DNA of 8,329 nt from Bdellovibrionales bacterium (GTDB lineage: Bacteria; Myxococcota; XYA12-FULL-58-9; SYDY01): the NCBI GenBank assembly GCA_005801425.1, contig SYDY01000048.1:1-8329 (forward strand), written 5' to 3'. Below the pieces are notes generated by a model, which was not told the DNA's origin, made no database searches, and worked only from the letters and a program-made list of their open reading frames with translations. Each line of letters opens with the position of its first letter. The stretch's first letter is position 1. This document shows, in pieces, positions 1-8,329 of the stretch. The translations under genes were made by a program, and so were the position numbers.

Positions 1-252
1 GAGCGCGTACAAACCCAACAAGTGCGCAGCGAGACCGAGATCACCCAAGCCAATGTCATCGAGCAAAGTCAAACCCATTTTGTGGTGCACATGATGGGCA
101 ACAGCCGTTTGTATCCGTTAACACGATACGATGGCGATCCTGCCGAAGTACGGCCCTTCAATGTTCGCGTGGGACTTCGTGTGGTGGATCGCGATCCCGA
201 ACATCGACGCAATGGTCTCGAAGTGGTTTCATTATCGGAGGCAGCACAATGA
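1..252 (+). CDS. C-terminal part of a hypothetical protein, possibly VirB8/TraK-like
   Basis: The reading frame is open from the first base to the TGA at 250-252, giving 83 residues, so the gene starts upstream of the window. What remains looks like a beta-rich soluble domain, with alternating hydrophobic runs such as THFVVHMM and FNVRVGLRVV, and no membrane helix. The tail RRNGLEVVSL can be aligned with the end of VirB8/TraK-type periplasmic domains, where an NPxGF-type motif is followed by a last strand of the VxSY kind; only the glycine and the strand pattern match. The stop overlaps the next start by four bases (ATGA), so the two genes are translationally coupled, and the downstream genes look VirB9- and VirB10-like. 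Coding is well supported by this coupling. The VirB8-like reading is an inference from a short fragment plus gene order. A GTG at 22 lies in frame but there is no reason to treat it as the true start. Confidence 0.7.
   Translation, partial: ERVQTQQVRSETEITQANVIEQSQTHFVVHMMGNSRLYPLTRYDGDPAEVRPFNVRVGLRVVDRDPEHRRNGLEVVSLSEAAQ
237..241 (+). promoter_or_regulatory. Shine-Dalgarno for the 249 start
   Basis: GGAGG sits seven bases before the ATG at 249 and inside the end of the preceding gene. It supports 249 over the in-frame ATGs two and five codons later, and supports coupled translation. Confidence 0.7.
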
Positions 253-1106
253 ATATGATCTCAATGGGCTTGATGCTTCTTGCAGCGTCCACAGGCGCAC
301 GAGAGCTTACCAACAAAACATTGTCCATTGTGATGAATGACAAAATTCCTTCCTATGAAGTCCCTGTGGGCCTTGGCACCCATTTTGAAGTGTGGACAGA
401 GCGGCCATGTGAACCGCCATCCCTGGGCGATCCCAATGTGTTCAAACGCGATTTTGATCAGAGCATTCAAAACCCCACGCGATTTGTATTGGCGGTGATT
501 AAAAATATCCCCGACAGACGCGCTCATTTCACTTTGAAATGCGAAGGTGGATTAGGCGTCATTTTGCAAGCACGGGTGGTTTCTGATCCTGCCGATGCCA
601 TCGGGATCATTAACGTGCGTGTTTCTGATACACTGAATGCGTTTACAGCCCAAGCCGTCAGCGATGCGATTCATGCCGAACAAGAAAAGACCAAAGCAAA
701 TAACGAAGAACAACGGCGAAAAGTCTTGCTTGAACGCGAACAGCGCAATCTCAAAAGTTTGCACGCGAGATCCATCACCCACCACGATATCGAGCATGGA
801 CGATTCGGAAAAGTCGTGGTGCACGTCACCCAACAAATCACCATGGGCGAAAGAACCTACGTTTTCTATCGCATTGAAAATAACGACCCCCATGCTTTTG
901 CCGTCGATGCCATTGAGATGCATGCCAAAAGCAATGCCATGCCCACATCTCAAAGCTTTTACATGCCAACGGGTCGGGTAGAGCCCAGCGGAAGCGAAAT
1001 GGGCGTGCTGGGCTTTGATACACCACTTACCGACACAGAACTTACCCTGATGGTACGAAGCAACACCGGGATCACCATTGAGGTAGACGATGTCGATTTA
1101 CGATGA
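249..1106 (+). CDS. Secreted two-domain beta protein, VirB9/TraN-like (or DUF2381-like)
   Basis: This protein of 285 residues is probably periplasmic or outer-membrane associated. Residues 1-17 form a short hydrophobic leader ending in ASTGA, a plausible signal peptide. Residues about 20-125 are beta-rich, with a YEVPVGLGTHFEV segment and two cysteines (C54, C98) that could form a disulfide. Residues about 135-178 are a highly charged helical linker rich in Glu, Lys, Arg and Gln. Residues about 184-285 form a second beta domain with FYRIENNDPHAFAVDAIEM, then a GSEMGVLGFDTPLTDTELTL stretch and a closing strand. Two beta domains joined by a linker, and a C-terminal pattern of neutral-to-charged Asn-rich strands, resemble VirB9 and especially Bacteroides-type TraN. 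Myxococcal DUF2381 proteins have a similar size and helical middle and, as I recall, also sit beside kinases, so that family is the main alternative. It overlaps the kinase gene by 17 bases, which suggests co-translation and a shared complex. Confidence 0.8.
   Translation: MNMISMGLMLLAASTGARELTNKTLSIVMNDKIPSYEVPVGLGTHFEVWTERPCEPPSLGDPNVFKRDFDQSIQNPTRFVLAVIKNIPDRRAHFTLKCEGGLGVILQARVVSDPADAIGIINVRVSDTLNAFTAQAVSDAIHAEQEKTKANNEEQRRKVLLEREQRNLKSLHARSITHHDIEHGRFGKVVVHVTQQITMGERTYVFYRIENNDPHAFAVDAIEMHAKSNAMPTSQSFYMPTGRVEPSGSEMGVLGFDTPLTDTELTLMVRSNTGITIEVDDVDLR
1080..1083 (+). promoter_or_regulatory. Shine-Dalgarno inside the upstream gene, sets the kinase start
   Basis: GAGG lies six bases before the ATG at 1090 and within the last codons of the preceding gene. 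It supports a start that overlaps that gene by 17 bases. Confidence 0.55.
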
Positions 1107-3054
1107 ATTGAAAGCCGATCAGATCCTCGATGGTCGTTACCGTGTGATCCGCGAGATCGGCGATGACGTTGGCGGTATGGGCAAAGTGTTTTTGGTGGAA
1201 CACCAACGCCTTCGCAAACAGATGGTTGCCAAGGTGATCCGTCGTGAGCTGCTCACCGCTGAAACAACCCTTGCGCGAAAACGTTTTCAAAACGAGGCAG
1301 AAAGCACCGCAAAATTCGACCACGATCATATTATTCGTGTGACCGATTGCGGCGAATTCCCTGGTGGACTTTATTATGTGATGGAGTTCATCCCAGGTGC
1401 CGTAAGCCTCAATAAGCGATTGAAAGATGTTTTGGACCAAGGAGCATCCGGTTTGCATCCCTCGGAAGCCGTGGCCTATTTTCTCCAAGCCACCGATGCA
1501 CTGGGGGCCGTTCATGATGCAGGCTACATCCATCGCGATTTAAAACTTCAAAATTTCCTGGTTCATCCTGAAACCTTGGCGCTTAAATTGATCGACTTCG
1601 GTATTGCCCGTGCGCCCAACAGTGAACTTACCGCAGAAGGCGCTATTGTGGGCACGGTGGCGTGGTTTTCGCCTGAAGAAGCCGCATTTGACGCAGGTTC
1701 TGGCGATGGCAAAGACATTGATTTCCGAAGCGATTATTTCAAACTCGGCGTGGCCATCTATCGGTGCTTAACGGGTAAAAAACCATTCACGGCAAAAAAT
1801 CACGAAGATTACCTTGAAACCATTATTTCCTACGAACCTCCTCCCCCATCCATGCTTCGTGATGAATTGGATCCACGCTGGGATGATCTCATTGAAGGGC
1901 TCTTGGACAAAAGTCCTAAGCATCGCTTGTGCGATCCCCTTGAAATTTCAAAACGTTTAAAAGCCATGACCCAAAATGCGACAGATATTGAAAACGCCGA
2001 TGATTGGTTTCATGGCGGTGACGAAGATCAAGGCAGTTGTGCATGGGTTGAATCGTCCAAGTCATCTTCTGTGTCAAAACCCTCGGAACAACCCACTTCA
2101 TCAGAAAACCGCTGGCATGCCATTGGGACACGCACAAAGTGGTCTTTGGGGCTTGCCATGGGAAGTTTACTCTTGTTGCTAATGGGTCTTTTGATGGGTA
2201 AAAACGATCCTGCCCCCGTCATACCACCACCCAGTGCATCCCTTGGTTCTCCTGAACTCGCACCCAAACCCGTATCCCCCGTTGATTTACTGCGCGACCG
2301 TGAAAAAGCCCGTATCCTGGCTGTGCGAGAACAAGAAAAAATTCCAGAGAAATCAACACACGTTCTGGAAACCAAAGTTTTCGACAGAACAACACAATCG
2401 CCACAGCGTCAAAGACAACAACACGTACTTGTGACAACTCCGACCACTGTGCTCAGCGCCATTCCGTCTATTGGCGAATCCTTGAGCGAGCCTGGCAGCA
2501 TTGTTAAATTTGACGTACCAGAAAAGAAGAACACAGCAACCGCACCAACATCCCTTGGATTGCCCACAGGAACACGCCTGGTGGCACGCCTTGAGCATGG
2601 CATTCATTTAACACCAGGCGAAAGCGTGCCGTGTATCGCTGTGGTGATGCTTCCCGATTGGGCATCGGCCCATGTTGCGGGCAAACAAATTAAAATTATG
2701 GGAACGGCCCGCATGAACAATGACGTTCATTCTGGACGCGCCGATGTGTCGTTTCAATCCGTTGTGTTCGACACAGACAAAGAGATCCCGTTGCGTGCCG
2801 TGGCCATGACACCCGATGGTTCTATGGGCATTCCAGGCGACATGCAGCGCCATGATGGAAAGCTCAAATCCAACGCTGTTGAAGGTGTTTTGGATGTTGT
2901 GACCGGTATTGCAAGCACTGCCATCGGTGCACGTTCTGGACAGCGTTTTACCGACGATGCACGTCGCGAAGTACGCCGTGACCGACAAGAACATGTTGAA
3001 CTCACGCTTTCCACATCGCGCGCGTTTGAAATCCAATTGACGAGGGCATTATGA
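1090..3054 (+). CDS. Membrane Ser/Thr protein kinase with VirB10/TrbI/TraM-like periplasmic domain
   Basis: This 654-residue protein phosphorylates Ser/Thr at the inner face of the membrane and carries a large periplasmic part. The kinase domain (about 17-292) keeps the key residues: a glycine loop ending in GGMGKV (28-33), Lys48 in VAKVI, a C-helix Glu at 69, HRDLKLQN with Asp150 and Asn155, DFG at 169-171, and GTVAWFSPEE at 188-197. It should therefore be active. A charged, Ser-rich linker (300-350) leads to one membrane helix (352-369), then a proline-rich stretch (373-400). Residues about 487-654 are beta-rich and begin LPTGTRLVARLEHGIHLTPG, followed by TPDGSMGIPG (574-583). These match the start of VirB10/TrbI domains (an aGTxIpAxL-type motif) and the DG...GIxxPG pattern of TraM. 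VirB10 also has a cytoplasmic tail, single helix, proline-rich segment and C-terminal beta domain, so the kinase replaces the usual tail. Kinase and topology are sure; the VirB10 match is moderate. It overlaps both neighbours. Confidence 0.93.
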   Translation: MSIYDELKADQILDGRYRVIREIGDDVGGMGKVFLVEHQRLRKQMVAKVIRRELLTAETTLARKRFQNEAESTAKFDHDHIIRVTDCGEFPGGLYYVMEFIPGAVSLNKRLKDVLDQGASGLHPSEAVAYFLQATDALGAVHDAGYIHRDLKLQNFLVHPETLALKLIDFGIARAPNSELTAEGAIVGTVAWFSPEEAAFDAGSGDGKDIDFRSDYFKLGVAIYRCLTGKKPFTAKNHEDYLETIISYEPPPPSMLRDELDPRWDDLIEGLLDKSPKHRLCDPLEISKRLKAMTQNATDIENADDWFHGGDEDQGSCAWVESSKSSSVSKPSEQPTSSENRWHAIGTRTKWSLGLAMGSLLLLLMGLLMGKNDPAPVIPPPSASLGSPELAPKPVSPVDLLRDREKARILAVREQEKIPEKSTHVLETKVFDRTTQSPQRQRQQHVLVTTPTTVLSAIPSIGESLSEPGSIVKFDVPEKKNTATAPTSLGLPTGTRLVARLEHGIHLTPGESVPCIAVVMLPDWASAHVAGKQIKIMGTARMNNDVHSGRADVSFQSVVFDTDKEIPLRAVAMTPDGSMGIPGDMQRHDGKLKSNAVEGVLDVVTGIASTAIGARSGQRFTDDARREVRRDRQEHVELTLSTSRAFEIQLTRAL

Positions 3055-3632
3055 AACACACAAGCATCGTATTGTTTGCACTGTTTTTGATGCCATCGTT
3101 AAGCCATGCGTCATCCGGTGAATTTGTTGTCTCCATGCAGCCTGAGTGGCTTATGGAAATCGCACAAAGCACGGTGGATCATGGTATTGGTACATCGCTG
3201 GCAGCCAACTACACACTCACAGATCATATTTTTGTTGGAAGCACATTGCGATTCATGGACTACGGCGGACGGCAACCCGATCCATCCCACGGCGAAAAAT
3301 TGCGCCGATTTGATGCGGTGCCATGTATCGGCCTTGTGTTTGGCAACGATTGGAAGTTTCGTACCGCATTGGGTGTTGGATTGCGCATGGAACACGCCCG
3401 CGAACGCTGGCAATTCCCCATTGATGGCATTGCGCCCATTGATGAAAATTACAGCTTGCGCGCACGCGGTGTTGCCGAATTACAAATGTCGTTGAGCTAC
3501 CGTGTTCCTCGCGACGTAGGCGGAAGCCTTGAAATAGGCCTACAAGCCAACGGACGACACGGACTTGGAATAAATTCTTTTTCACCGGAAATCGGTGCAG
3601 CACTTATGGTTGCGTGGTGGTGGTTGGGATGA
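3051..3632 (+). CDS. Small outer-membrane beta-barrel-like protein
   Basis: The predicted protein has 193 residues. Residues 1-20 are a clear Sec signal peptide (MKHT, a hydrophobic core, then SLSHA before SSGEF). The mature part of about 173 residues alternates polar and hydrophobic residues in strands of 9-12, for example IGTSLAANYTL, IFVGSTLRFMDY, FRTALGVGLRME, AELQMSLSYRV and GGSLEIGLQA, and ends in the aromatic-rich strand AALMVAWWWLG. This length and pattern fit an eight-stranded barrel of the OmpX/OmpA-like kind, although no family-specific motif is recognised. The start ATG shares ATGA with the stop of the kinase gene, and GAGGG lies four bases upstream, so it is the last gene of the coupled operon. 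A role as the outer-membrane partner of the kinase and VirB9-like protein is inferred only from this position. Confidence 0.82.
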   Translation: MKHTSIVLFALFLMPSLSHASSGEFVVSMQPEWLMEIAQSTVDHGIGTSLAANYTLTDHIFVGSTLRFMDYGGRQPDPSHGEKLRRFDAVPCIGLVFGNDWKFRTALGVGLRMEHARERWQFPIDGIAPIDENYSLRARGVAELQMSLSYRVPRDVGGSLEIGLQANGRHGLGINSFSPEIGAALMVAWWWLG

Positions 3633-3764: not shown

Positions 3765-4028
3765 ATGAGCTTTGAGTATGATCCCGTGAAAAGCCTTACC
3801 AACAAGGACAAACATGGGATCGATTTTGAAGAAGCTCAGAAGATCTGGGAAAGCGATTTTGTCGAAATACCGGCCAAAACGACGGGTGAACCACGATGGT
3901 TAATCATTGGAAAAATTGATGACCTCGTTTGGACTGCGGTCATCACATATCGCAACAACATGATACGAATTATTTCAGTAAGGAGGTCCAGAGATGACGA
4001 AGCGACGCTCTACCAGCGAATTCGATAA
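3765..4028 (+). CDS. brnT: BrnT-family (DUF497) ribonuclease toxin
   Basis: This 87-residue protein is the toxin of a type II toxin-antitoxin pair. BrnT proteins have a RelE-like fold, cleave RNA and so stop translation until bound by BrnA. The family signature is clear: FEYDPVKS near the N-terminus, NKDKHGIDFEEA at 13-24, a central strand pair RWLIIGKIDD and WTAVITYR, and the terminal RIISVRRSR at 68-76, which carries the basic residues expected of the family. Length is normal and nothing looks broken. The ATG gives the canonical family start, yet no Shine-Dalgarno lies at a useful distance, which suggests weak or leaderless translation. The last 35 bases overlap brnA. Repeats over the promoter suggest autoregulation. 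Confidence 0.88.
   Translation: MSFEYDPVKSLTNKDKHGIDFEEAQKIWESDFVEIPAKTTGEPRWLIIGKIDDLVWTAVITYRNNMIRIISVRRSRDDEATLYQRIR
3981..3987 (+). promoter_or_regulatory. Strong Shine-Dalgarno for brnA inside brnT
   Basis: AGGAGGT, close to a perfect anti-16S match, lies six bases before the ATG at 3994 and within the brnT coding sequence. It contrasts with brnT, which has no clear site, and should favour excess antitoxin. Confidence 0.75.
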
Positions 4029-4227
4029 AGCGTTTGACGATGGCGAAAGTGTCATCGGAGATCTTGATCTTGAACGCGCAATCCGCCGTGTGAATCTTGA
4101 TCTACCTGAGTGGGTGATAGGCGAGCTTGATCAAGAATCTGAGCGCGTAGGCATTACACGCCAGGCACTCATTAAAACATGGATTGTTGATAAACTGGAT
4201 TCGCGCCATCACAAAAGCAGAGCATAA
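3994..4227 (+). CDS. brnA: BrnA-family ribbon-helix-helix antitoxin
   Basis: This 77-residue protein is the antitoxin partner of the upstream toxin. The C-terminal half is a CopG/BrnA-type ribbon-helix-helix: the strand RRVNLDLPEW (31-40), a helix at about 40-52, a turn RVGITRQ (51-57) and a second helix ALIKTWIVDKL (58-68). The N-terminal 30 residues are acidic and probably disordered until they bind the toxin. Two such proteins should dimerise, bind DNA through the paired strands, and repress the brnTA promoter. The start is fixed by AGGAGGT six bases upstream. The gene overlaps brnT by 35 bases in another frame and ends five bases before the stem of a terminator, so the cassette is self-contained. 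It could also be filed under a general CopG antitoxin family, but with BrnT beside it BrnA is the better name. Confidence 0.87.
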   Translation: MTKRRSTSEFDKAFDDGESVIGDLDLERAIRRVNLDLPEWVIGELDQESERVGITRQALIKTWIVDKLDSRHHKSRA

Positions 4228-4471: not shown

Positions 4472-7400
4472 ATGTGGAAATCGAGATCAGTTCTGGTCGC
4501 GGCACTTCTTCCCTTCATATTTTGCGCATGCGATGGAAACGGGCGGCCTGCTGATTTTCAGCAAGGCGGCTTTCTCGAAGGGGCAGTCATCAAAGGCCCC
4601 GTTGCCCATGCAACAGTTCAGCTTAAAACCATCGACGGTAAAACCCTACTGAGCACAACCGAAACCGATGAAACCGGTGCCTTCAAATTACCACTGGCAA
4701 GCGCAAGCGGTGATTTTCGTGTTTGCGCTTCCAATGGTTCATTTACGGATGAAGCAAGCCGTGTACGTGTTTCGCTGCGTGACGAAACGTTGTGTTCCGT
4801 TGTCAGCGATATTCGTCCAGGCCAGTCACGACGCGGGTTTCCCATCACACCCTTCACCGATTGGACCATTGCACGCATGGACGCCCGCGTTCGATTGCAT
4901 AATGAATCCTTCCGACAAGCCTACGATGCCGCACGTCGCGATGTGGGCGAACTTTTGGGTTGCGCGCGCTATGGCACCGATATTCTCGATGCCGTTCCAA
5001 AAATTGATCTTGTGCACGACACCCCTGCCCCATCCGAGGCGTTGCGTCCTGATATTATCGCCGGGATTTTACTCCATGGTTTGAGCCATCAAGCACTGGC
5101 CATTGCACAGGGGTCCCATCTCACACCAGGTGCTGACATTCACAGTTTGGCACTTGCCCAAGCCATTTCACGCGATATCCGATCGGATGGTCTTGCAGAC
5201 GGAAAAGCAGGCAACGAACCCATTATACTGGGTAATGTTGCGCTTTCATCAAACACCTTACGCGGTGCGGATCTTGGACTTGCCCAAGGCATTCGTTCTT
5301 TCATTCGCGAAGAAGGCACACAACTCGCCATTGCTGAAAGCGATTTGGCATCACTCACCACATGCCTTGCCACATCCCATGGCGCATTGTTTGGTGGAAA
5401 TTCTGGCAATATATTGGATACGCAAGGCCCGCGCATCACACTTGCTGTTCCAAATACAGAACACGGAATTTCGGGGGCATTCACACTCACTGTTCATGCT
5501 GAAGACATTGCCGGTGTTGCGCAAATCAAAGGCGATGGCCTCGGCAATGCATTTCGTGGCTTATCCTACGAACCTTCCGACATGCCTCAAGTGGCGATGT
5601 GGACCGTACCCATCGAAACCAATACCATGGCTGACGCAGTTTATGATCTCGTAATTTCTGCCAAAGATCGCCTCGGCAATGCATCACAAATTCACAAATC
5701 GATTATTGTGAACAATCAAGCCCCGCGTATCACAACCATCGATCCCGCTGTGCAATCGTTTGTGTCTGGCCCCATTCGCATCGCAGCAGAAGCACAAGAT
5801 CAGCATGGCATTTCCAATTTCACCATTGAGAAGCCCGAAGGCCTTGTGGACATCAATCCATTGCCCAACCAGGTGGACGCCGCGTGGGAAACCACCGATG
5901 CCCCCGAAGGCCCTTTCGTCATCACGTTGAAAGCCGAAGATACCCAAGGACAAATCAGCATTCATGAATTGCCTATCGAAATCGATAATCTGAAACCAAG
6001 CACATGGTCAGGCCAAGCATTGCTTGAAACGCCCATCACCCACGGTCTGATCCAAGCCTGGAGCTTGGATGGAACAAGTCGCAAAAATATCATCGGCGCA
6101 AGCACTTCGGAAAACGGGTCATTTACGATCCAAGTGTCCGATATCTATTCAGGCCCCACACTGCTTACCATTTCAGGCACAACCACCAGCTTCAAAAGTG
6201 CAGCGACGGGACGCGATGTGATGTTTCGACCTGCGGATGAATTGAGCTTGTTGATTCATCATGTGCCAAGCAGCAACGGTCAAAAAATCGACCATTTATC
6301 CATCAATGCATGGACCACACTTGCAACCGAACTTGCACTTTCATTGCGACGCAATGGATTGGGTTGGTCAACCGCCATCACACGCGCGCACGATCTCATG
6401 GGCTCTCATTTGCGCCGAGGCGATGGTCAAAACACCACGGATATTCCTATTGATATTCGATTTACGTCAGGCATCAATCTTCTCACCCCTGATCCCATCG
6501 GCACCGAAGATGAAGTGAGCATGACATTTTCCCACGTAGGCCTTTCACGTCTTGCGGCCGAAGCATCGCTGATTGCTGGGCGCGGCAATGCAGGAAAGAA
6601 TACCATGCATCTATTGGAGGCATTGCGCGTGGATTTGGAAGACAATCGTTTCGACGGCCTTGATCATCTCGCGCACGCCATCGACATCACCGATATGGCG
6701 AAGCTCAGCGTTGAAACGCTACGGAGCGATCTTGCCGCCGAAGTGCTTAAATGGCTCAATCGACAGCCTTTATCGGATACCACCTCAGGTATCGCACCAC
6801 CCTCTTGGGTTCGCGTGCCTAATTTTGCACGACCTGGCGGATTTCTCCACGACATCAACAGCGACACATCAGAACTCTTTGGACGCGCCGAACCCAAGCC
6901 TTTTGATACCGAAGGCCCCAAAATCGCATTTGCAGGCATTCCAACCGACGGTTTTGTGCGCGGTGATTTTCCACTTTCTGTTTTGGCAACAGATAACGCA
7001 GGCGTGATCTCCGTGGATATTTTAATTGCAGGATATCCCCACGCCGTTCATCCCGAAGATGACATGGAAAATATCGCCGATTACGAACGTGCAATCATCG
7101 ACACCACACAGGTTACCGATGGCGAACACAGCGTGGTGGTAAAGGCTACCGATGCCTTTAACAACACAAGCGAATCGCATTTCAATATTCAAGTAGACAA
7201 TACACCACCTACCATCATTCCCGTGGGATTGTCCGAATTCGTACACACACGAAGCTTCCCTATCATCGCAAACATTAACGATGGAGATCATGGAAGTGGC
7301 GTAAGTTCGTTTAAGATCCTACACCTTGGAAGAGTCATTTCCACCGGTACTTTAAACGGAAGCATTGCCTCCGCATCGGTCAGCATGAATGCCTGCGAGC

Positions 7401-8329
7401 CCATGGTACTGCATCTTGTTGCCGAAGATCGCCTAGGCAATCGTTCTGAACTCGTAAAGCAAGTGACGTGCGATGATCAGCCGCCAGAAATGGTTATTCT
7501 GGGTGTCACCAATGGAACCAGCCTACCACGAACCATAGGAAGCCAATTCGGAAATGAAGCCGCAATGGCCCCTGCTTCCCTGCCTACGATGTCATTCACG
7601 CTCGCAGATCTTTACGGATCCGGTCGGAGTCCCGTTATTGCCATTAGACCACAAAACATCACAAGAGAATCTTTAGCATCCGCAGAATTTAGATTTCCTA
7701 GCGAAGGATTTTTTGCATCATGGCATTCCATGCAACAGGCCGATGATGGTGCATGGTGGGTTCCACTATCCATGGAAGATATCATTTCCCGTGGGCAAGA
7801 GATTCAAAATGTTGTTTCAATCGAATTGCGCGGATCTGATCGTGCAGGCAACAGCGTAAGTCAAAGGTACGTTTTTCGGGTTAATTTTAAAAACCCCGTG
7901 TTACGACTCGACAATTGCAAAGTTCATGACGAACTGTATGCGCGCAATTTCAATGATGGTTCATTGCAAAGCCTCTTTCAAGCGTGGCTACGACCCAAAG
8001 TTGGACGATGTGATATCACCTTTGATGCGGGCTACGCAGACAACAATCTTGCACGCAATTTTGCAATCCGCGTGAAGCCCACAACCCTACAACCTGCCGA
8101 TGTGTGGATTGAAGGCGTTACCGAGTGGGGCGAAGTCATTGACGTATTTTCCTACCGCACGCCCATTCGTGCAGAAGCGTGCAGCCGTAGTCCTTTTGAG
8201 GGTCAATGTCCCGACGGCAATACCGGTTATCAAATAGGGAAAGTGCAATCATGCGGGCCTGTACAGGTCGGGGTATTTGATTCTAATTATTGTTTGAGTG
8301 GTGTTGTCCCCGAAGCGCGCCAATGGGAA
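4472..8329 (+). CDS. Very large modular Ig-like lipoprotein, incomplete at the 3' end
   Basis: The frame stays open for 1286 codons to the last base, so the C-terminus is missing. Residues 1-20 form a lipoprotein signal: MWKSR, a hydrophobic core, then FCAC with the lipidated Cys at 20 (residue -3 is Phe, less usual than Leu). Asp follows the Cys; in E. coli that retains lipoproteins in the inner membrane, but the rule may not hold here. Domains in order: a carboxypeptidase-regulatory-like beta module (about 37-105) with a helical module (about 125-295); two Ig-like repeats (about 319-416 and 417-506); a second beta module (about 514-585) with a helical module (about 609-765); three further Ig-like repeats (about 812-910, 911-1000, 1001-1140); then a region with six cysteines (1149-1274). 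The Ig units start with patterns such as DTxGPxI and end with D(R)xGN motifs. No enzyme motif is visible; a structural, adhesive or surface role is likely. It has its own promoter. Confidence 0.9.
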   Translation, partial: MWKSRSVLVAALLPFIFCACDGNGRPADFQQGGFLEGAVIKGPVAHATVQLKTIDGKTLLSTTETDETGAFKLPLASASGDFRVCASNGSFTDEASRVRVSLRDETLCSVVSDIRPGQSRRGFPITPFTDWTIARMDARVRLHNESFRQAYDAARRDVGELLGCARYGTDILDAVPKIDLVHDTPAPSEALRPDIIAGILLHGLSHQALAIAQGSHLTPGADIHSLALAQAISRDIRSDGLADGKAGNEPIILGNVALSSNTLRGADLGLAQGIRSFIREEGTQLAIAESDLASLTTCLATSHGALFGGNSGNILDTQGPRITLAVPNTEHGISGAFTLTVHAEDIAGVAQIKGDGLGNAFRGLSYEPSDMPQVAMWTVPIETNTMADAVYDLVISAKDRLGNASQIHKSIIVNNQAPRITTIDPAVQSFVSGPIRIAAEAQDQHGISNFTIEKPEGLVDINPLPNQVDAAWETTDAPEGPFVITLKAEDTQGQISIHELPIEIDNLKPSTWSGQALLETPITHGLIQAWSLDGTSRKNIIGASTSENGSFTIQVSDIYSGPTLLTISGTTTSFKSAATGRDVMFRPADELSLLIHHVPSSNGQKIDHLSINAWTTLATELALSLRRNGLGWSTAITRAHDLMGSHLRRGDGQNTTDIPIDIRFTSGINLLTPDPIGTEDEVSMTFSHVGLSRLAAEASLIAGRGNAGKNTMHLLEALRVDLEDNRFDGLDHLAHAIDITDMAKLSVETLRSDLAAEVLKWLNRQPLSDTTSGIAPPSWVRVPNFARPGGFLHDINSDTSELFGRAEPKPFDTEGPKIAFAGIPTDGFVRGDFPLSVLATDNAGVISVDILIAGYPHAVHPEDDMENIADYERAIIDTTQVTDGEHSVVVKATDAFNNTSESHFNIQVDNTPPTIIPVGLSEFVHTRSFPIIANINDGDHGSGVSSFKILHLGRVISTGTLNGSIASASVSMNACEPMVLHLVAEDRLGNRSELVKQVTCDDQPPEMVILGVTNGTSLPRTIGSQFGNEAAMAPASLPTMSFTLADLYGSGRSPVIAIRPQNITRESLASAEFRFPSEGFFASWHSMQQADDGAWWVPLSMEDIISRGQEIQNVVSIELRGSDRAGNSVSQRYVFRVNFKNPVLRLDNCKVHDELYARNFNDGSLQSLFQAWLRPKVGRCDITFDAGYADNNLARNFAIRVKPTTLQPADVWIEGVTEWGEVIDVFSYRTPIRAEACSRSPFEGQCPDGNTGYQIGKVQSCGPVQVGVFDSNYCLSGVVPEARQWE
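4571..5356 (+). repeat. Lipoprotein internal module, copy A
   Basis: This covers residues about 34-295 of the lipoprotein: a small beta domain (GAVIKGPVAHATVQ, then a DG turn and TGAFKLPL) followed by a helical domain with ITPFTDWTIAR, SDGLADG and LSSNTLRGADL. It is matched by copy B in order and spacing of motifs. The duplication shows at protein level only and is old, since the DNA is not obviously similar. Confidence 0.55.
6002..6766 (+). repeat. Lipoprotein internal module, copy B
   Basis: This covers residues about 511-765. It has SGQALLETPITHGLIQ, a DG turn and NGSFTIQV, then a helical domain with LSINAWTTLATEL, DNRFDGL and LSVETLRSDL. Each motif lines up with one in copy A, notably LSxxTLRxxDL-type and DGL segments near the end. 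Confidence 0.55.

Follow-up and report, generated by a model that had tools for sequence, protein, structure and literature searches.

VirB10 is the sole subunit of type IV secretion systems (T4SSs) that bridges the inner- and outer-membrane complexes, and it appears to coordinate responses to both inner and outer signals (PMC12857230). Its N-terminus has been proposed to act as a switch that contacts VirB4 and perhaps VirD4, and the 2025 review that covers this point regards the way in which recipient contact is sensed at the T4SS core as unclear and as a question of central importance (PMC12624023). The locus described here lies in a window of 8329 b, which is an entire contig (SYDY01000048.1, here G000:C38) of a 3.38 Mb Bdellovibrionales assembly in 121 contigs, and it contains a gene encoding a Ser/Thr kinase fused to a VirB10-like domain. 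In the described members of the VirB10 family the cytoplasmic tail is short, and it is likely that in this T4SS of Myxococcota, a group of soil bacteria, a Hanks-type Ser/Thr kinase has taken the place of that tail.

The Kinase-VirB10 Fusion

The fusion protein has 654 aa (1090..3054 (+)) and begins with a kinase domain (residues 17-280, 1138..1929 (+); Pfam Pkinase, 3.5e-37) containing the motifs VAK (K48), HRDLKLQN (148-155) and DFG (169-171). This is followed by a single transmembrane helix (residues 352-370, 2143..2199 (+)), the sole hydropathy peak above 1.5, in which the most hydrophobic 19-mer begins at residue 352 with a Kyte-Doolittle mean of 2.03; a Pro-rich periplasmic linker (residues 371-490, 2200..2559 (+)) with 16 Pro in 119 aa (372-490); and a VirB10/TrbI C-terminal barrel domain (2560..3051 (+)), recognised by Pfam, AlphaFold2, Foldseek and VIA-align. 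An earlier note on this DNA had already reported a kinase domain, one membrane helix (352-369), a proline-rich segment and the C-terminal stretches LPTGTRLVARLEHG and TPDGSMGIPG, all of which were found as claimed, the last two at residues 491-504 and 574-583. These findings support a domain order equal to that of VirB10, with the kinase as the cytoplasmic part.

Scanned alone, the C-terminal domain matches Pfam TrbI (E-value 3.4e-6); the TrbI family-profile search of its own genome found nothing, which reflects the sensitivity limit of that search. A profile of 24 family members reached solved structures of Xanthomonas VirB10 (6gyb, 9e-6) and ComB10 (9e-5), TrbI being matched by 17 of the 24 and conjugative-transposon TraM by 21. 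In addition, a model of the VirB10-domain family built without the window genome recovered the fusion at 5e-15, with shuffled and reversed copies unmatched. The AlphaFold2 model, made from 11 sequences, presents a confident beta core (predicted local distance difference test mostly 84-94) and a low-confidence insert (model residues 123-163) at the position of the VirB10 antenna, which it may correspond to. When this model was submitted to Foldseek, the best 25 matches were all VirB10, TraB, DotG, CagY, ComB10 or TrwE chains (6gyb_C, 1.5e-7), and VIA-align gave Z-scores of 11-15 for 12 of 14 VirB10-type entries and of 8.9 and 6.6 for the other two, at 14-19% identity in the structure alignments, the first unrelated entry scoring only 4.2. 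Thus, Pfam, profile searches and the predicted structure strongly point to a VirB10/TrbI fold for residues ~485-654, as the earlier note had suggested; an unrelated fold, the outcome that it had regarded as fatal, failed to appear.

A second copy of the locus, 92-93% identical, is present in the same assembly (contig G000:C119, 1-4272); it could be a strain variant or belong to a second element. Its fusion gene, 93% identical to that of the window, keeps the fused frame and differs by 45 synonymous versus 23 non-synonymous codon changes, indicating purifying selection on the fused frame, and the linker is the part of the protein that varies most between the two copies. Taking into account the TrbI match, the value obtained with the model that leaves out the window genome, and the conservation of the fused frame in the second copy, the kinase-VirB10 fusion is real and not due to chance.

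The Operon around the Fusion

The window is a fragment of a T4SS operon, in which the fusion stands beside VirB8 and VirB9 and the genes at 1-252, 249-1106, 1090-3054 and 3051-3632 overlap end-to-start. The first of them (1..252 (+)), cut by the contig end, encodes the C-terminal 83 aa of a VirB8-like protein, which occupies the position of VirB8 in the relatives and was detected by a VirB8 model built without the window genome (E-value 2.1e-6 at Z=10,000; shuffles 75 or worse). Its stop codon overlaps the start of the next gene in the sequence ATGA (249-252).

This second gene (249..1106 (+)) encodes a VirB9-like periplasmic protein of 285 aa with a signal peptide, a relative of DUF2381, which a VirB9 model made without the window genome recognises at 1.6e-16. 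Its AlphaFold2 model contains two beta domains with a helix between them; the top 8 Foldseek matches are all chains of the VirB9/DotH/TraK type (best 6gyb_B, 1e-7), and the N-terminal domain reaches VIA-align Z-scores of 11-12 with DotH, TrwF, VirB9 and the F-plasmid outer-ring protein. It is this N-terminal domain that discriminates; the C-terminal half resembles unrelated beta-sandwiches too. The proteins in the VirB9 position of genome G013 match DUF2381 (PF09544) at 1.5e-10 and 2.8e-10, which suggests a possible role for DUF2381, that of a VirB9-like core protein.

Downstream of the fusion, a gene at 3051..3632 (+) encodes a secreted protein of ~193 aa, found at the same operon position in most relatives, to which it has a weak similarity (E-value 0.08 with a model lacking the window genome); it is probably an outer-membrane barrel. 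The last gene (4472..8329 (+)), also cut by the contig end, encodes a large lipoprotein with immunoglobulin-like and carboxypeptidase-regulatory-like domains (Big_13 8.1e-9; CarboxypepD_reg 9e-5), which belongs to an operon-associated family (7e-125, again without the window genome in the model). VirB4 (7.6e-84) and the start of VirB5 are encoded elsewhere in this genome, on contig C103.

Between the genes for the secreted protein and the lipoprotein, a BrnT toxin gene (Pfam, 4.3e-23) and a CopG/HicB-like antitoxin gene were found (3765-4227). This pair is missing from the C119 copy, where ~740 b are absent between matching flanks, so that an insertion or a deletion has taken place between the two copies.

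Recurrence in Myxococcota Genomes and Plasmids

A six-sequence profile was used to scan 193 Myxococcota genomes, 21 of which were matched; after inspection, 18 genomes belonging to 14 genera retained an in-frame kinase. Weak matches of a first round in G003, G117, G133 and G017 and a later one in G060, with no kinase and no convincing VirB10, were dropped. The earlier note had proposed a search for further kinase-TrbI fusions and their neighbours; T4SS genes adjoin the fusion at about 20 loci. The full operon, which appears four times with small variations in genome G013 (JADLHZ01), has the order VirD4, transglycosylase (VirB1), VirB2, VirB3, VirB4, VirB5, VirB6, VirB8, VirB9, kinase-VirB10, secreted protein of ~200 aa and lipoprotein, with partial or rearranged versions in Anaeromyxobacter, Myxococcaceae and others. 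The gene models of the operon were refined on these loci, which inflates their E-values; the calls were independently checked with Pfam, with loci outside model building and with the models lacking the window genome. At one G013 locus (G013:C160), a partial VirB9-like duplicate of 118 aa and a helix-turn-helix gene are situated between VirB8 and kinase-VirB10 (12267-12623 and 13562-13888).

Two complete circular plasmids carry the fusion, Myxococcus stipitatus pYRE (NZ_CP102771.1, 49,970 b; kinase-VirB10 at 17858-20299) and that of Myxococcus sp. MxC21-1 (NZ_CP123279.1, 64,379 b). In both, it is annotated just as 'protein kinase', and the copy in the VirB9 position of MxC21-1 as 'DUF2381'. Among 72,556 plasmid records, only one covers at least 80% of the G128 fusion used as query; a tblastn search of the plasmid records with the VirB10 domain of the window gave no match; phage records match the kinase part alone. 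Concerning the kinase, all 16 aligned fusions keep HRD and the catalytic Lys (the latter where the alignment covers the residue), DFG is replaced by DWG in a few of them, and the f23 orphans read HRDVSPQN or HRDVSPHN.

A fusion generated by chance or by the assembly, or a degenerate pseudogene, could be imagined for a short contig of a fragmented assembly such as this one. However, its presence in 18 genomes of 14 genera and on two complete plasmids, the conserved catalytic residues and the purifying selection reduce this explanation to a negligible probability, and the recurrence refutes it.

Relatives of the system ride mobile elements, as indicated by the two circular plasmids and by a tyrosine integrase (5.3e-19) near a locus of G013, and VirD4 is encoded beside relatives (TraG-D_C, 5.6e-12 and 7.6e-12). 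The plasmid and integrase context together with VirD4 favours conjugation, the probable function of the system. Proteins of the Replic_Relax family (PF13814) are encoded beside VirD4 in G048 (8921-10048, 4.7e-15) and pYRE (27070-28050, 3.4e-5), and are candidates to stand in for a known relaxase in DNA processing. In a VirB4 tree, kinase-bearing systems are found on all deep branches, and two kinase-less systems lie on one inner branch (85/84, modest support); the VirB4 of the window genome sits on a very long branch, and its place in this tree was not used.

The mobility of these elements also bears on a different role for the kinase. Thus, a kinase borne by a plasmid or an integrative and conjugative element and tethered to VirB10 might reprogram the motility, development or defence of its host during transfer, in a phylum whose signalling makes wide use of Ser/Thr kinases (81 kinase matches in G013). 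Such a host-directed function seems improbable, as free kinases would suffice for it, the covalent attachment to the channel would be left without explanation, and the fusion has been kept across deep T4SS branches.

Origin of the Kinases and the DUF2381 Pairs

A tree that also included background kinases gathered most of the T4SS kinases into one group (94/88). The pYRE kinase lies outside this group and its joining was rejected (approximately unbiased test, AU, p 8e-5), which discards a single origin for all the fused kinases, whereas for the window kinase joining was not rejected (AU p 0.29). It is thus likely that a kinase was gained, or exchanged for another, on at least two occasions, and the separate origin of the pYRE kinase suggests repeated selection for a kinase at VirB10.

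Nested inside the T4SS kinase group are chromosomal kinases of Myxococcaceae linked to DUF2381. In these chromosomes, DUF2381 genes (L024-L053, L121-L124) are followed by kinases or by lipoproteins of ~160 aa, whose tails resemble the VirB10 profile (hhalign 95.5%, P 1.3e-8, 24 versus 8 sequences); the same comparison of the Myxococcaceae lipoproteins with just six VirB10 domains was weak (27%). Of 189 sampled genomes, 76 contain DUF2381 matches above the cut-off, with up to a dozen or more copies per genome. These chromosomal pairs are apparently orphan VirB9/VirB10 cores. The earlier note had also considered that the C-terminal region might match only a myxobacterial kinase tail; related tails are indeed common in myxobacteria, but they too look VirB10-derived.

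Several observations weigh against the reading of the fusion as a working kinase-bearing VirB10 of a T4SS. The TrbI match of 27.5 bits is under the Pfam gathering score of 35. The Gly-rich loop of the window kinase (1159-1188) reads GDDVGGMGKV and is two residues longer than in all other aligned fusions, and because this P-loop insertion is unique to the window copy, ATP binding by its kinase cannot be taken for granted. No relaxase turned up next to kinase-bearing loci in the stretches that were examined, including a Pfam scan of the pYRE proteins, and the sole clear relaxase (TrwC, 1.7e-83) adjoins a kinase-less VirB10 in G016:C75 (1-1032 and 14111-15496). VirB10 without a kinase occurs at two loci, G016 and G193:C228, so that a T4SS of this type can do without the kinase. 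Finally, the fusions of G164, G165 and G042 occur in genomes without a VirB4 match, and are possibly orphan sensors.

The last of these points, together with the chromosomal DUF2381-kinase pairs with a VirB10-like tail, whose kinases are nested in the T4SS clade, would fit a myxobacterial receptor kinase that has borrowed the VirB10 barrel and a VirB9/DUF2381 partner as an outer-membrane anchor, its role in secretion having been lost. For the window we give little credit to this explanation, since VirB8 and VirB9 are encoded in an overlapping gene run, VirB4 and VirB5 are present in the genome, and ~20 relatives are located within T4SS operons.

Proposed Mechanism

To the identity of the parts, the operon, its recurrence and the conserved catalytic residues, established above from sequences and predicted models, the following scheme adds a ring stoichiometry, a kinase activity, a direction of signalling, substrates and a function in conjugation that we infer. 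In the outer-membrane core complex the C-terminal barrel would be the partner of VirB9; the Pro-rich linker would run across the periplasm and the single helix through the inner membrane, placing a ring of kinases, one per VirB10, at the base of the channel, where the VirB10 tails touch VirB4/VirD4. Assembly, or contact with a recipient at the outer end, would then most likely rearrange the VirB10 ring, bringing the kinase domains together or freeing them, with a proximity-driven trans-phosphorylation as in receptor kinases. Phosphorylation of the ring, of the channel ATPases and VirD4 or of relaxosome proteins would switch the state of the machine. We tentatively propose, as a possibility rated below even, that recipient contact is transmitted through the VirB10 barrel and its periplasmic arms to the kinase ring at the base, which phosphorylates the ATPases or the relaxosome and starts transfer, and that the VirB9/VirB10-kinase core was later co-opted and multiplied on Myxococcaceae chromosomes, as DUF2381-kinase pairs, to serve as an envelope-spanning signalling device.

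The main rival concerns the direction of signalling, both directions being ones that we infer. The kinase might sense the cytoplasmic state (ATP, relaxosome docking or growth phase) and phosphorylate the VirB10 tail or linker, or the ATPases, licensing the opening of the channel with no signal from outside. Agrobacterium VirB10 has been described as an ATP energy sensor (Cascales and Christie 2004, cited in PMC12857230 and PMC12624023), and the fused kinase would lie exactly where contact with VirB4/VirD4 has been proposed. Nevertheless, such inside-out gating is somewhat unlikely, given that the protein has the layout of a receptor kinase (cytoplasmic kinase, one transmembrane helix and extracytoplasmic domain) and that a Pfam scan of its N-terminal half recognised no cytoplasmic ligand-binding domain.

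If the kinase is active, as the proposal of signalling from recipient contact supposes, VirB10 signalling could be read directly through phosphoproteomics or point mutants, and the channel may either signal events at the cell surface or be switched by them.

Comparison with Known Systems

The open-access literature searched yielded no published description of a kinase joined to VirB10. The pYRE and MxC21-1 plasmids share the arrangement of the window, with kinase-VirB10, VirB9 upstream, and VirB4, VirB8 and VirD4 nearby. In the paper on MxC21, 64 of 68 plasmid genes are hypothetical and one is a Ser/Thr kinase, the T4SS not having been recognised (PMC10544341), and the paper on pYRE mentions neither conjugation nor a T4SS (PMC11237760). 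T4SSs, VirB10 and receptor kinases are each known; a conserved subunit that unites them covalently did not turn up in the open literature searched, which is no proof of novelty. The comparison also uncovers a T4SS lineage borne by plasmids or integrative and conjugative elements in Myxococcota, a phylum with few described plasmids.

Outside the myxobacteria, the nearest full-length VirB4 matches (~26% identity) belong to the T4SS of Thermus plasmid pTTJL1802, in whose cluster, unlike the system of the window, no kinase is annotated. The DUF2381 proteins of Myxococcaceae differ from the VirB9 of the window in being mostly chromosomal, many per genome, and with no T4SS in view.

With the PASTA-type receptor kinases (PknB/StkP), the fusion shares a cytoplasmic Hanks kinase, one transmembrane helix and an extracytoplasmic domain, and its nearest NCBIfam profile is PknB_PASTA_kin, for the kinase part only. 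Unlike them, it carries a subunit of a T4SS channel outside the cytoplasm in place of PASTA repeats, and it is encoded in a secretion operon. With VirB10, TrbI, TrwE, TraB of F, DotG and CagY, it shares one transmembrane helix, a Pro-rich periplasmic stretch, the barrel fold, a VirB9 gene directly upstream and the context of a VirB operon. It departs from this family in its remote sequence and in a cytoplasmic part formed by a Ser/Thr kinase of ~300 aa, whereby an enzyme whose product, phosphorylation, can be measured is attached to the very subunit that bridges both ends of the channel.

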